From Bacteroidales bacterium (lineage in GTDB: Bacteria > Bacteroidota > Bacteroidia > Bacteroidales > UBA10428): a stretch of DNA of 64,000 bases. Location: positions 1 to 64,000 of the forward strand of contig JAFGIP010000024.1 of assembly GCA_016929525.1 (NCBI GenBank), given 5' to 3'. Shown one piece after another: positions 27,370 through 32,194 of this stretch (its first letter is position 1; every line of letters starts with the position of its first letter). The notes under the pieces are model-generated. The model was not told the DNA's origin. It ran no database searches and was given only the letters and a program-made list of their open reading frames with translations. The position numbers were made by a program, and so were the translations under genes.

Positions 27370-29586
27370 ATGAAGGAGTATCCTGTTAAATGGTCACAGT
27401 TTATATGCACTGTTATAATTTTATTATTATTTCAGATCATATATGCTTCTGATTCTAATGATATTAAAAGCCAGATAGAACAGTATAAAACACTTTTTAA
27501 AAAATATGAATTAGAAGGGAACACTACTGAACTTGCAAAAAGTGCGAGTAAGCTGGGTTATCTGTACTGGCAGATCGATGCAAAAAAGGAAGCGATTGAT
27601 TATTTCGATCAGGCAATTCAACTTAATCTTCAAACAGGAAACAAAAATGCGCTAAGGGTTATTTACAGCAACCTGGGGCTGATTTATTCGGAGCAGGGAA
27701 ATTACCAGCAGGCAATAGAATCTTTTAAAAAAAGTCTTGAGATTAATCTCGCAAAAGGCAATAAAAACGATGCAGCTTCTGATTATCTGAATATTGCGTT
27801 ATCATTCCAGGCACTAGGTTATTATGCAGAATCAAACAGCAGAGCTAAGCAGGCACTTGAAAAGGCACTTGAACTGGATAATCTTACATTAGCAAAGTCA
27901 TGCTACGGCGCTTTGGCTGAAAATGAGGAAAAACTTGGAAATAATAAAGCAGCATCCGGGTATTATGAAAAATATACCACTCTGTCAAAGCATTTGCAGA
28001 AACAGGAAATGGAAGCCATGGCCAGTAAAACAAAAGAGATTGAAAGACAGGTTCAAACCAAAGAAAAACAACTTCGCAGCACACTTGATACTTTGGGTGA
28101 AGTGCTGGAGCTTAATCGGGAAATGCAGCTTGAAAATGCATTACTTAATAAAGAAAATCAGCTTAAGGAAGCTCAAAAAGCAAGACTTGAAGCGCAACAG
28201 GATAAATTAAAGGCAAAGGAAAAAACACGTCGCACACAACTTATTGCGATGGGGGTTGTGGCTCTTCTGATATTCTGTATTGCCGTTCTTATATTTTGGC
28301 AGTTTAGTCAGAAGAAAAAAGCCAATAATTTGCTTAAAGATCAAAATGCAGAAATAGAAAGACAAAAGACAGAAATTGAAAAACAGAGGGATTTGGCAAA
28401 TATTCAAAAGAAAAAAATTACCGATAGCATACAATATGCACGTCGTATTCAGACAGCTGTTATCCCTCCTGTAAGTGTTATTGAACAAAAACTCAGTGAT
28501 TATTTTGTACTTTATAAACCGAAGGATATTGTAAGTGGGGACTTTTACTGGTGGAATCTGAAAGATGATGTTTTAATAATAGCAGCTGCAGATTGCACCG
28601 GACACGGAGTCCCGGGAGCTTTCATGAGCATGCTTGGAGTGGCATTTTTAAATGAAATTGTTAATAAGATTGTAGTAAATAAACATATAAGTGCACTAAA
28701 TGCCGATGAAATCCTGAATCAGTTACGTGAGATGGTTATTACTTCCCTGCACCAGACAGGGGATACAAACGAGAACAAAGACGGGATGGATATTTCATTA
28801 TGTATCATTGATTTTGAACATAAAAAACTACAATATGCAGGGGCAAATAATCCGTTATATATAATCAGAGATAGTGAAATTATTCAATACTCACCTGATA
28901 AGATGCCTGTCAGCTTCCACCAAAACAGGAATAAACCTTTCAGGAAACATGAGGTGATTTTAAAACATGATGACAGAATATATTTATTTTCTGATGGCTT
29001 TGTTGATCAGTTTGGAGGGGATAAGGGATTGAAATTCCTTTCTAAAAGGTTTAAAGAAGTATTGGTTAATATCCACAAACAGCCTATGGAGGAACAAAAA
29101 AAACTTCTCGAGAAATCACTTACCGACTGGATGGGAGATCGTCCTCAACTGGATGATATACTTGTAATCGGACTTAGATTTGGCATACAAAAAATAGAAG
29201 AGAAACCTGTTTCCAAGATAAACTGGCAGTCAAAAACAATTTTAATTGCAGAAGATACAGATGTCAATTATTTTCTTCTGACAGCTGTTTTAAAACAAAC
29301 CAATGCAAATTTAGTGAGAGTAAAAGACGGACAGGAAGCTATCGATTTTATTAAAAACAATGAAGTAGATTTAATTCTGATGGATATTAATATGCCGCGA
29401 ATGAATGGTTATGATGCAACTCGTACAATTAAACAGATAAGGAAAGATATACCGATTATTGTTCAGACAGCAATGCATTTTGAGGAAGAAAGCGAGGAAG
29501 CGTTTAATGCCGGTGCTGATGAATATATTACAAAACCTATTGATTTAAAGACTTTTATGAGTAAGATGGAACGTTTTCTTAGTTAA
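27370..29586 (+). CDS. TPR-sensor SpoIIE/PP2C phosphatase with C-terminal receiver domain
   Basis: The 738-residue protein has a signal/anchor (about 8-26), TPR repeats (about 36-205) outside the cytoplasm, a coiled coil (about 205-285), a transmembrane helix (about 290-311), a second coiled coil (about 315-350), a SpoIIE-type PP2C phosphatase domain (about 355-605), and a receiver domain (622-738). Phosphatase metal residues are present: Asp391, Asp408, Asp542 (FSDG), Asp595/596 (LDD). The receiver has Asp672 as phosphoacceptor with Thr700-region and Lys722. It likely dephosphorylates a STAS- or SiaC-like partner; the SiaC-like gene follows 121 nt downstream. The receiver lets a histidine kinase feed in. 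Confidence 0.9.
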   Translation: MKEYPVKWSQFICTVIILLLFQIIYASDSNDIKSQIEQYKTLFKKYELEGNTTELAKSASKLGYLYWQIDAKKEAIDYFDQAIQLNLQTGNKNALRVIYSNLGLIYSEQGNYQQAIESFKKSLEINLAKGNKNDAASDYLNIALSFQALGYYAESNSRAKQALEKALELDNLTLAKSCYGALAENEEKLGNNKAASGYYEKYTTLSKHLQKQEMEAMASKTKEIERQVQTKEKQLRSTLDTLGEVLELNREMQLENALLNKENQLKEAQKARLEAQQDKLKAKEKTRRTQLIAMGVVALLIFCIAVLIFWQFSQKKKANNLLKDQNAEIERQKTEIEKQRDLANIQKKKITDSIQYARRIQTAVIPPVSVIEQKLSDYFVLYKPKDIVSGDFYWWNLKDDVLIIAAADCTGHGVPGAFMSMLGVAFLNEIVNKIVVNKHISALNADEILNQLREMVITSLHQTGDTNENKDGMDISLCIIDFEHKKLQYAGANNPLYIIRDSEIIQYSPDKMPVSFHQNRNKPFRKHEVILKHDDRIYLFSDGFVDQFGGDKGLKFLSKRFKEVLVNIHKQPMEEQKKLLEKSLTDWMGDRPQLDDILVIGLRFGIQKIEEKPVSKINWQSKTILIAEDTDVNYFLLTAVLKQTNANLVRVKDGQEAIDFIKNNEVDLILMDINMPRMNGYDATRTIKQIRKDIPIIVQTAMHFEEESEEAFNAGADEYITKPIDLKTFMSKMERFLS

Positions 29587-29707
29587 TTGTACCGGAGACC
29601 TGATGTATTTTATTTTAATATTTGATTTAATGATTTGTACTTTGTAAAACTGTTTACTTAAAATTAATTCAGTAAATTGGTGGAATATTCTTTAATACCT
29701 TTAATTA

Positions 29708-30088
29708 ATGGAACCTTTATTTTTAGATGCAACGGAAGATTCACCGGAAATAAATTTTAACAAATCGAAGAAAATCTTCTCGATTACAGGACGTTCTTTG
29801 CCAGAAGATGTCATTTCGTTTTATACTCCAGTTTTCTCATGGCTTGAGCAATATGTTGCCGATCCCGCTGAAGAAACAAACCTGAAAGTGAAAGTAGATT
29901 ATTTTAATTCCGCTTCACAAAGAGCCCTTAACGAGATATTTATTATACTTAACAGAATAGCTATCAAAGGTAAAAAAGTGAAAATAGACTGGTATTATAA
30001 TGAAGAAGATGAAGAGATGAAAGAAGCCGGGGAAGAGTACGCGGATATTACAAAGCTTTCCTTTAATTATATTAGCTATGTTCCTTAG
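29708..30088 (+). CDS. SiaC-family (DUF1987) regulatory phosphoprotein
   Basis: The 126-residue protein matches SiaC/DUF1987: LFLDATEDSPEINFNKSKKIFSITGRSLPEDV at the start and VKVDYFNSASQRALNEIF in the middle. In Pseudomonas SiaC the phosphorylated Thr68 sits in the equivalent YFNTxS motif, and here the position is Ser68. SiaC is switched by a kinase (SiaB) and a PP2C phosphatase (SiaA). The upstream SpoIIE phosphatase would be the SiaA-like partner; no SiaB-like kinase is visible in the window. The downstream target is unknown. Confidence 0.85.
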   Translation: MEPLFLDATEDSPEINFNKSKKIFSITGRSLPEDVISFYTPVFSWLEQYVADPAEETNLKVKVDYFNSASQRALNEIFIILNRIAIKGKKVKIDWYYNEEDEEMKEAGEEYADITKLSFNYISYVP

Positions 30089-30120
30089 TTTATATATTGA
30101 ACCAATAGAAAACAAGTATT

Positions 30121-31833
30121 ATGTTAAAAACTGTTACTCTTTTGTTTCTTACGTTGTTTTCTTTATCTGTTTTTGCGCAGGAGCAGCTTAAGCATGAAAA
30201 GAAAACATACACATCTCCGGATGGAAGGTTTTATGTTCAAAAAAGTCTTCCGGTTTACATCTGGATGTCGACTTCAGAATCTGAAGGCTCTGTAAAATAC
30301 AGGCTTAAAAGTGAAGTAACCACAAAGTATTCAAACCCGATGTATTTTGATACAGAGGGTTATAATACAGTACGTTCTCCGTCAGCTGTTGATACATCAA
30401 CGCACAAAACAATATACCCTTTAAGGGATATAATATTCGAAGTATATGCAGACAGCAGATCACCTGTAACCAGTATCGATTTTGGAGAAGTTATGCTTTA
30501 TAAATCTGAGGGGAAAATTAACCTGGGAACAGGAACCCGGATTACACTTAAGGCCAAAGATCAGCTTTCCGGTGTGGAAAATATTTATTATTCAATAGAT
30601 GGAGCGCCATATAAGCCATATTCAGAACCAATCAATATCGCACAGGAAAAGGAGTATATCCTGAAGTATTATGCTGTGGATAATGTTGGTAATGTTGAAG
30701 AAGTTCACGAACTAACTCTTGTTTATGATAAAACAGCACCATCGTCCAAGCTGGAAATTGAAGGAGATAAATATGAGAACATACTCTCAGCTAGGTCAAA
30801 GATTATTTTAACCACGGAAGATCAGGGAGCCGGATCAAGCAAAATAGTTTACAGTTTGGATGAGGGAGGCGAAAAAGTATATACCAGTCCCATTCTTGCA
30901 GCTTATATATCACAGGACGACCATATTTTATATTATCATGCTGAAGATAAAGTTGGGAATAAAGAGGTAAAAAGATCTTATAATTTTTATGTGGATAAAA
31001 CTCCGCCAACCATAATTGAAGAAATTATGGGGAAGAGTTTTTTTTCAGGAGGAAAAGAATTTTCCTCAGGGAAAACGAGACTTAAGTTAACATCGTTTGA
31101 CAATAAGGCAGGAGTTAGGGAGGTTCGATATTCAGTGAATAATGGAGAGTATGAATTCTATGATAATCCGGTATTTCTGACACAAACATCAGGTAACCTG
31201 GTTATTAAATCATATGCTGTCGATAATGTAAATAACAGGTCGAATAGCCAGACAGCCAATGAAAAGACATCAATTCCATATATCGATCTTACAGGACCCG
31301 AATTGTCACATATATATAATGGGCCAAAATTTATTACCAGAGATACTACATTTATTAGCGCTAAAACGAAAATAATATTAAGAGGGGCTGACTCTGAAGC
31401 TGGAATGAATCGAATAGAATATTCTGTTGATGGCAGCGGTCCAAGGGAATATACAGATCCTGTTATTATCAGTGACGAAGGTTATAAAGTAATTGATATG
31501 ACAGGGTTTGATAATGTTGATAATACTAGTGCAAATTCTTTTGGTGTCAAGGTTGATGCTTCAGGACCAGAATTATCTTATTCATACGGTACTTCATCAC
31601 TGGGGAAAAAAGAAGGTAAACAGGTTTATCCGGCACATACCGTATTATTTATCTCGGCCACTGATAATGTTGTGGGTTTTGAAAAGATGACATATAGCCT
31701 CAACGGAGGCATTTCAAAACCATATAACGGAATGATAGGTAATCTGCCAAAAGGGAATAACGAAATTAAAATTATTGCCCTGGATCAGCTTGGAAACAGT
31801 TCTGAGTTGGTTGTTAATTTCATTATTGAATAA
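30121..31833 (+). CDS. Exported protein with OmpL47-type beta-sandwich repeats
   Basis: The 570-residue protein has a signal peptide (about 1-20, ending VFAQE). After a 100-residue leader region it carries about five repeats of 80-90 residues, each with the pattern ITLKAKDQLSGVENIYYSID, a GxxxxY step and a closing AVDNVGN, near 125-210, 215-300, 310-385, 395-480 and 490-570. This is the OmpL47 (Ig-like) repeat, found in surface and periplasmic proteins. No enzymatic domain and no T9SS tail is seen. It lies 32 nt after the SiaC-like gene and 1 nt before the cupin gene. Confidence 0.8.
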   Translation: MLKTVTLLFLTLFSLSVFAQEQLKHEKKTYTSPDGRFYVQKSLPVYIWMSTSESEGSVKYRLKSEVTTKYSNPMYFDTEGYNTVRSPSAVDTSTHKTIYPLRDIIFEVYADSRSPVTSIDFGEVMLYKSEGKINLGTGTRITLKAKDQLSGVENIYYSIDGAPYKPYSEPINIAQEKEYILKYYAVDNVGNVEEVHELTLVYDKTAPSSKLEIEGDKYENILSARSKIILTTEDQGAGSSKIVYSLDEGGEKVYTSPILAAYISQDDHILYYHAEDKVGNKEVKRSYNFYVDKTPPTIIEEIMGKSFFSGGKEFSSGKTRLKLTSFDNKAGVREVRYSVNNGEYEFYDNPVFLTQTSGNLVIKSYAVDNVNNRSNSQTANEKTSIPYIDLTGPELSHIYNGPKFITRDTTFISAKTKIILRGADSEAGMNRIEYSVDGSGPREYTDPVIISDEGYKVIDMTGFDNVDNTSANSFGVKVDASGPELSYSYGTSSLGKKEGKQVYPAHTVLFISATDNVVGFEKMTYSLNGGISKPYNGMIGNLPKGNNEIKIIALDQLGNSSELVVNFIIE

Positions 31834-31834
31834 A

Positions 31835-32194
31835 ATGCCTCAAATAATTCTTTCACCTGCCGAAATTAAAGCTGCAGGTAATAAGCCCAAAACAATATTG
31901 GAATACATCGGAAGAGTTAATTCTGACTCTTCAGAAATAAGCGTGGCTCAAATGAAAAGCCCTACCGGGTGGATTGAATCCGGACAAAAGCCTGAGTTTA
32001 ATGAATATACGTTAGTGTTAAAAGGTATTCTGAAAGTTGAAACAGAAAATGAAACATTTGAAGTAAAGGCAGGTCAGGCAATTATTATTGAAAAAAACTG
32101 CTGGGTACGTTATTTCACACCATTTCAGGATACCGAATATATAGCAGTTTGTTTACCCGCATTTTCTCCTCAATCCGTACATAGAGATAAATAA
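31835..32194 (+). CDS. Cupin-domain protein
   Basis: The 119-residue protein is one small beta-barrel: EYTLVLKGILKVETENETFEVKAGQAIIIEKNCWVRYFTPF. It resembles the EutQ-like/cupin-2 group, but only some of the usual metal-binding His are seen, so binding is uncertain. ATG 31835 is chosen because it starts 1 nt after the stop of the OmpL47 gene and opens MPQIILSPAEIKAAG; an upstream in-frame ATG at 31775 would overlap that gene. It ends at the terminator 32194-32223. Confidence 0.75.
   Translation: MPQIILSPAEIKAAGNKPKTILEYIGRVNSDSSEISVAQMKSPTGWIESGQKPEFNEYTLVLKGILKVETENETFEVKAGQAIIIEKNCWVRYFTPFQDTEYIAVCLPAFSPQSVHRDK

Follow-up and report, generated by a model that had tools for sequence, protein, structure and literature searches.

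Why does a gene for a secreted protein built of OmpL47 repeats stand directly behind the genes of a SiaA/SiaC-like partner switch? The question is raised by positions 27370 to 32194 of a 64,000-nucleotide stretch of DNA (the window), taken from contig JAFGIP010000024.1 of a Bacteroidales bacterium (assembly GCA_016929525.1). Four open reading frames (ORFs) on the forward strand encode a SiaA-like phosphatase, a SiaC-family phosphoprotein, the OmpL47-repeat protein and a cupin-like protein; reading frames, Pfam and NCBIfam bear out this description, the cupin match being weak. An earlier interpretation made from the letters alone (the sequence-only reading) had pointed to the tight order of the last three genes, and the gaps were reproduced from the sequence: 32 nt between SiaC and OmpL47 and 1 nt between OmpL47 and the cupin, with 121 nt between phosphatase and SiaC. 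We propose that the locus is a conserved, new form of SiaABC-type switch that probably includes an extracytoplasmic co-sensor.

The first gene (27370..29586, + strand) encodes a phosphatase of 738 residues. Pfam recognizes tetratricopeptide repeats (TPRs; TPR_12, 2e-14), a SpoIIE/PP2C domain at residues 399-604 (SpoIIE, 6.4e-21) and a C-terminal receiver at 624-732 (Response_reg, 2.4e-26) with Asp672 within LMDINMP. Hydrophobic segments lie at residues 9-27 and 291-309. The architecture described by the sequence-only reading is thus present, and its extracytoplasmic TPRs are a prediction: the N-terminal hydrophobic segment together with segment 291-309 would place the TPR part outside the membrane, a topology that is not proven because basic residues occur on both sides of segment 291-309. 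The structure model of the protein reached a predicted local distance difference test (pLDDT) score of 77 and a predicted template-modelling (pTM) score of 0.40. The PP2C part matches the solved phosphatase domain of SiaA, 6k4e, at 1.9e-40. By motif and spacing, the active-site residues that PMC7647112 names as conserved in SiaA correspond to D391, D408, G411, D542, G543 and D595, and these do not vary among 38 OmpL47-linked phosphatases.

The second gene (29708..30088, + strand) encodes a 126-residue member of the SiaC family (PF09345, 3.7e-39, 133.6 bits against a cut-off of 24.5). In Pseudomonas aeruginosa, Thr68 of SiaC is phosphorylated by SiaB and dephosphorylated by SiaA (PMC7278518). 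Alignment to the solved P. aeruginosa protein places Ser68, within YFNSAS and preceded by N67, at this phosphosite, as had been suggested from the sequence. The letters N-S-A-S are identical in 12 of 12 orthologues, while most other SiaC copies of the host genome have N-T or N-S at the phosphosite and different letters after it (16 of the 17 host copies were aligned; the copy on contig C11, which has an in-frame stop, was left out). With a PP2C protein of intact active-site residues adjoining SiaC, the locus has the phosphatase and SiaC components of a SiaABC-type partner switch.

Is the arrangement peculiar to one strain? In the genus, the phosphatase-receiver, SiaC and OmpL47 genes are consecutive in five relatives (G001, G007, G005, G008 and G004; G and L handles denote relative genomes and fetched loci, C handles contigs, and G000 is the host genome), and three genomes with short contigs (G003, G002 and G006) show whichever parts of the unit they hold. 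Elsewhere in the family, the three genes occur together in G014, G009 has phosphatase and SiaC with no adjoining OmpL47, and G012 has SiaC and OmpL47 with no phosphatase. Gene order is therefore kept well beyond the strain, so that the refuting condition which the sequence-only reading had set on gene order does not apply, and related loci occur across the order.

The third gene (30121..31833, + strand) encodes 570 residues, with a signal-peptide-like start followed by a chain of OmpL47 repeats (NF047446, 2.3e-70, 233 bits against a cut-off of 40, in five stretches). Its structure model is a chain of beta-sandwiches, repeated beta-strand domains whose packing is uncertain (pTM 0.51). The best Foldseek matches are other chains of tandem beta-domains, such as the grappling-hook protein GhpA, and offer no functional lead. 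A lipobox-like motif was found in only one of 133 OmpL47 proteins compared.

The association of these proteins extends across the order. Of 295 genomes searched across the order, 66 matched the OmpL47 profile, 60 of them strongly. SiaC is present in 56 of the 60 genomes with strong matches and in 66 of the 235 others, and the Fisher value of 3e-21 is too small because related genomes were counted singly. For this test, the six genomes with weak matches were counted as lacking OmpL47, and the 295 genomes of the OmpL47 and SiaC scans were taken, from their handles, as the same sample. At 86 OmpL47 loci from 30 families, the same-strand run contains a PP2C gene at 37 (18 families), a SiaC gene at 25 (9 families) and either at 42 (20 families). 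These loci represent long OmpL47 matches (fragments and further rows, for example in G064, G204 and G281, were left out, as was L200, which has no OmpL47 ORF), and their ORFs were predicted by a simple script, with the frame in L164 doubtful. Ten of the 86, the window and nine of L083-L095, had come through a SiaC search, and the OmpL47 scan found eight of those nine again. Without the ten, the counts are 30 for PP2C, 15 for SiaC and 32 for either at 76 loci (17, 8 and 19 of 30 families). An independent scan of named genomes gave 47 new OmpL47 loci, with PP2C in 18 and SiaC in 13. Across 133 distinct OmpL47 genes, the run includes PP2C for 55 and SiaC for 38, compared with 7 and 6 for a control of 415 other long genes at the same loci.

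The partners stay together while their order changes. Writing P for phosphatase, C for SiaC, B for SiaB and O for OmpL47, we found about ten gene orders, among them P-O, P-C-O, O-P, O-P-C, O-P-C-C, C-P-O, C-P-O-O, P-O-O, C-O and, once, O-P-P-B-C. At locus L157, OmpL47, two phosphatases, SiaB and SiaC form one run. On a tree of the 133 OmpL47 proteins, built by a quick search and with SH-aLRT as its sole support measure, the linked state changes 15 times, whereas shuffled labels need 44 changes on average. Company that is retained while gene order is re-sorted speaks for a shared function. A literature search, thin in subscription papers, returned no description of a link between OmpL47 and a PP2C/SiaC switch; none of the matches listed joins OmpL47 with Bacteroidetes or SpoIIE, and the OmpL47 matches listed all concern Leptospira. 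Among the loci, four (L176, L185, L195 and L199) have two OmpL47-type genes in a row, of 309-354 and then 551-564 residues, behind SiaC and PP2C. In L160, the SiaC gene immediately precedes OmpL47, the run lacks a phosphatase, and the gene ahead of SiaC encodes a 395-residue protein, putatively of flavodiiron type as judged by eye.

Does the OmpL47 protein lie on the input or the output side of the switch? OmpL47 occurs with PP2C and without SiaC at 17 of the 86 loci. The reverse, SiaC with no PP2C, is seen at 5, and at least three of these loci are cut off by a contig edge. The linked phosphatases carry TPRs in 36 of 38 cases, each with a membrane-like segment near residues 270-350, while a receiver is present in 14 of 38. 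Locus L187 belongs to an OmpL47 clade that is otherwise phosphatase-linked; there, the neighbour of OmpL47 has TPRs and a histidine-kinase ATPase domain (HATPase_c). Over residues 2-395 this kinase shares 56% identity with the L184 phosphatase, and its N-terminal half is 28% identical to the phosphatase of the window. At L178, also in a phosphatase-linked OmpL47 clade, a TPR protein truncated where the contig stops shares 52% identity with the L190 phosphatase over 338 columns. It runs into the letters HDLKSPL, which we take to be an H-box motif and which Pfam does not call. In these two loci the TPR sensor stays with OmpL47 while the output is exchanged. In a further clade of 13 OmpL47 genes, which includes a second OmpL47 gene of the host, a YfiR/HmsC-like gene adjoins in 13 of 13 (Pfam and NCBIfam named the family for the host copy only, below the NCBIfam cut-off).

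The input side is indicated because the partners of OmpL47 include TPR phosphatases in loci without SiaC, a TPR histidine kinase and YfiR-like proteins. Taken together, these pairings suggest that the OmpL47 protein is more likely an extracytoplasmic co-sensor than a controlled surface output. The sequence-only reading had envisaged a partner switch that controls the surface in response to a two-component signal. Its switch, of SiaA/SiaC type with a receiver as input, is supported; its control of the surface is doubtful, since the linkage points to input.

Which kinase would serve such a switch? The locus had been described as lacking one, and this applies to its neighbourhood only: there is no SiaB gene in the unit, and profile searches of the host genome (4.06 Mb, completeness 97.7%, contamination 3.9%) found five SiaB-type (DUF6272) kinases alongside 17 SiaC and 12 SpoIIE matches. 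A switch with no kinase at all is ruled out by these five. One of them, an orphan that lies 15 kb beyond the window at 79.1 kb of its contig, matches the solved SiaB 6kko at 1.2e-9. Three of the five genes adjoin a SiaC gene and two do not. Among 60 relatives, SiaC and SiaB are present in the same 39 and absent from the same 21, which makes a shared kinase acting in trans likely. The 23 genomes of the host family have 303 SiaC matches and 93 SiaB matches, so that many SiaC proteins either share kinases or have none. No GGDEF match was found in the host genome at its 97.7% completeness. The genome thus lacks the mark of a SiaD-type cyclase system; a SiaD-type output was set aside on this ground, and a SiaD-like target of SiaC is unlikely.

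Several observations on the wider switch content of the host genome stand beside these results. Most of its 17 SiaC paralogues have no adjoining SiaB or phosphatase, and two lie in tandem on contig C56. At G000:C99:10136-14078 (L067), a receiver-PP2C protein, a TPR-PP2C protein, SiaB and SiaC are encoded in a row that resembles L157 minus OmpL47, and the glycine-rich box of this SiaB is poorly kept compared with the other four. Ten other SpoIIE proteins were scanned for domains (a protein on contig C112 was left out): three have TPRs and seven do not, the latter comprising three with a propeller, one with PAS/GAF, one with a receiver and two with no named sensor.

We therefore favour a reading in which the locus is a partner switch of SiaA/SiaC type and the OmpL47 protein its extracytoplasmic co-sensor; judged from sequence comparison, this reading stands slightly better than even. 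In this mechanism, the secreted OmpL47 protein would act outside the inner membrane and bind or modulate the TPR sensor of the phosphatase. Two inputs would set PP2C activity: the signal from OmpL47 and the phosphate that an unlinked histidine kinase places on the receiver. The PP2C domain would remove phosphate from Ser68 of SiaC, and one or more of the five unlinked SiaB-type kinases would restore it. Free SiaC could then bind a cytoplasmic target. A GGDEF cyclase is improbable in this role, since the genome, at 97.7% completeness, yielded no match to one.

The arrangement could also be read the other way, with OmpL47 as the output: the switch would control expression or export of the envelope protein through SiaC acting on a regulator or an export step. 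Same-strand order and short gaps are what this would predict, SiaC and OmpL47 are direct neighbours in all genus loci that hold both, and regulators often adjoin their targets. However, OmpL47 keeps the phosphatase without SiaC more often than SiaC without the phosphatase (17 against 5 of the 86 loci), related OmpL47 proteins stand next to a histidine kinase with TPRs or next to YfiR-like proteins, the unit encodes no DNA-binding protein, and the signal-peptide-like start makes direct contact with SiaC impossible. We consider an output role unlikely, although it deserves more weight than the alternatives that follow. One of these is that OmpL47 and the switch share an operon with no direct interplay, the envelope gene hitch-hiking, for example through co-expression under envelope stress. 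That the genes stay together through about ten different orders, and in 19-20 of 30 families, with far fewer changes of the linked state than shuffled labels give, makes this improbable. Finally, SiaC might be phosphorylated by some other kinase, or not at all. The unit has no SiaB gene, and the host does encode a stand-alone RsbW-like ATPase (G000:C108:120601-120963, a 134-residue open frame, HATPase_c_2, E 9.7e-23), possibly a partner-switch kinase of another type. The shared distribution of SiaC and SiaB in relatives, and the adjacency of SiaB and SiaC at three places in the host and in L157, render this explanation very improbable.

A number of results nevertheless weigh against the co-sensor reading. 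Neither PP2C nor SiaC is in the run of 60 of the 133 OmpL47 genes, with 13 more at contig ends, and SiaC is missing from four of the 60 genomes in which OmpL47 matched strongly. The distance (mirror-tree) test on 54 pairs gave a partial correlation of 0.29 for OmpL47 with the TPR part and 0.39 for OmpL47 with PP2C, which is neutral or slightly unfavourable. Both the OmpL47 genes located elsewhere and the neutral distance test are compatible with hitch-hiking. In addition, the phosphatase falls short of the SiaA equivalog NF038263 (203.1 against 700 bits, covering residues 329-604 only), and the SiaC protein falls short of its own, NF038265 (77.7 against 150 bits).

How does the proposed switch relate to known systems? 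As far as the available text of PMC7647112, PMC8457831 and PMC7278518 describes SiaABCD of P. aeruginosa, the two have in common a membrane PP2C phosphatase, a SiaC phosphosite at position 68 and SiaB-type kinases in the genome. Here, however, the kinase is unlinked, Ser replaces Thr, the sensor is a TPR domain, a receiver is added at the C-terminus, an OmpL47 gene is the partner and there is no GGDEF match. The L187 histidine kinase shares its homologous N-terminal half and its OmpL47 neighbour with the linked phosphatases, but has HATPase_c as output in place of PP2C and receiver. A parallel for the co-sensor is YfiBNR of Pseudomonas, in which, according to the accessible part of PMC4655355, outer-membrane YfiB sequesters YfiR. 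From what the excerpts of PMC4655355 and PMC4887326 report, there too a partner in the outer envelope controls an inner-membrane signalling protein, and the sister OmpL47 clade adjoins YfiR-like proteins. In contrast, OmpL47 is not YfiB, the window has no YfiR and its output is a phosphatase. The second host OmpL47-repeat gene (L186, G000:C57, 2069-4347) has its YfiR/HmsC-like gene directly behind it, despite the lack of a GGDEF match. With Leptospira OmpL47 the window protein shares the repeat type NF047446; it scores below the cut-off of the Leptospira equivalog NF047441 (197.4 against 250 bits), and the Leptospira protein is described in the context of surface proteins in the portions of that literature available.

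These comparisons raise the broader possibility that OmpL47-repeat proteins of Bacteroidota form a general class of co-sensors, one set serving TPR-membrane receptors of any output, be it PP2C, alone or joined to a receiver, or a histidine kinase, and another set serving YfiR-like periplasmic regulators, and that the locus is one of 17 SiaC switches that share five SiaB kinases and have targets other than cyclic di-GMP (c-di-GMP) cyclases. We advance this tentatively, as somewhat short of an even chance. In the literature found, to the extent that PMC7278518, PMC7647112 and PMC8457831 are available, the mechanism of SiaC (DUF1987) is known only from Pseudomonas, where it switches a c-di-GMP cyclase. 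SiaC has multiplied in the host family and the host has no GGDEF match; therefore, signal and target would differ from those in Pseudomonas. The pairing of OmpL47 with TPR sensors is a candidate for the missing signal input of Bacteroidota SiaC switches.

In five relatives (G001, G007, G008, G006 and G004), the two genes that immediately precede the phosphatase encode a TonB-dependent receptor and a small protein without a Pfam family, which excludes an upstream two-component pair as a general feature; only G005 has such a pair, made up of a histidine kinase with TPRs and a response regulator of LytTR type, possibly the input to the receiver in that genome. Downstream of the unit, the cupin-like gene (31835..32194, + strand, most likely start ATG 31835) matches Cupin_2 weakly (1.9e-5, 24.8 bits against a cut-off of 27.2) and is probably co-transcribed with OmpL47. 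No homologue was found among the ORFs of the fetched loci, and the cupin was excluded as a conserved member of the unit.

A different cassette offers a candidate target for SiaC. In the type found on host contig C115 (L064, G000:C115:1-18000) and at L094, L097, L098, L099, L100 and L102, PP2C, SiaB and SiaC are accompanied by a TerB/ABC-transporter-like protein that adjoins SiaC and is a candidate for the target of SiaC there. SiaB and SiaC are followed by this ABC-type protein, of 1022-1035 residues, at seven loci in seven genomes, the host included. A relative of it flanks the SiaB-SiaC pair on host contig C38; Pfam was run on the two host copies and found TerB in one. Upstream of the C115 cassette of the host lie genes for CheR and CheB.

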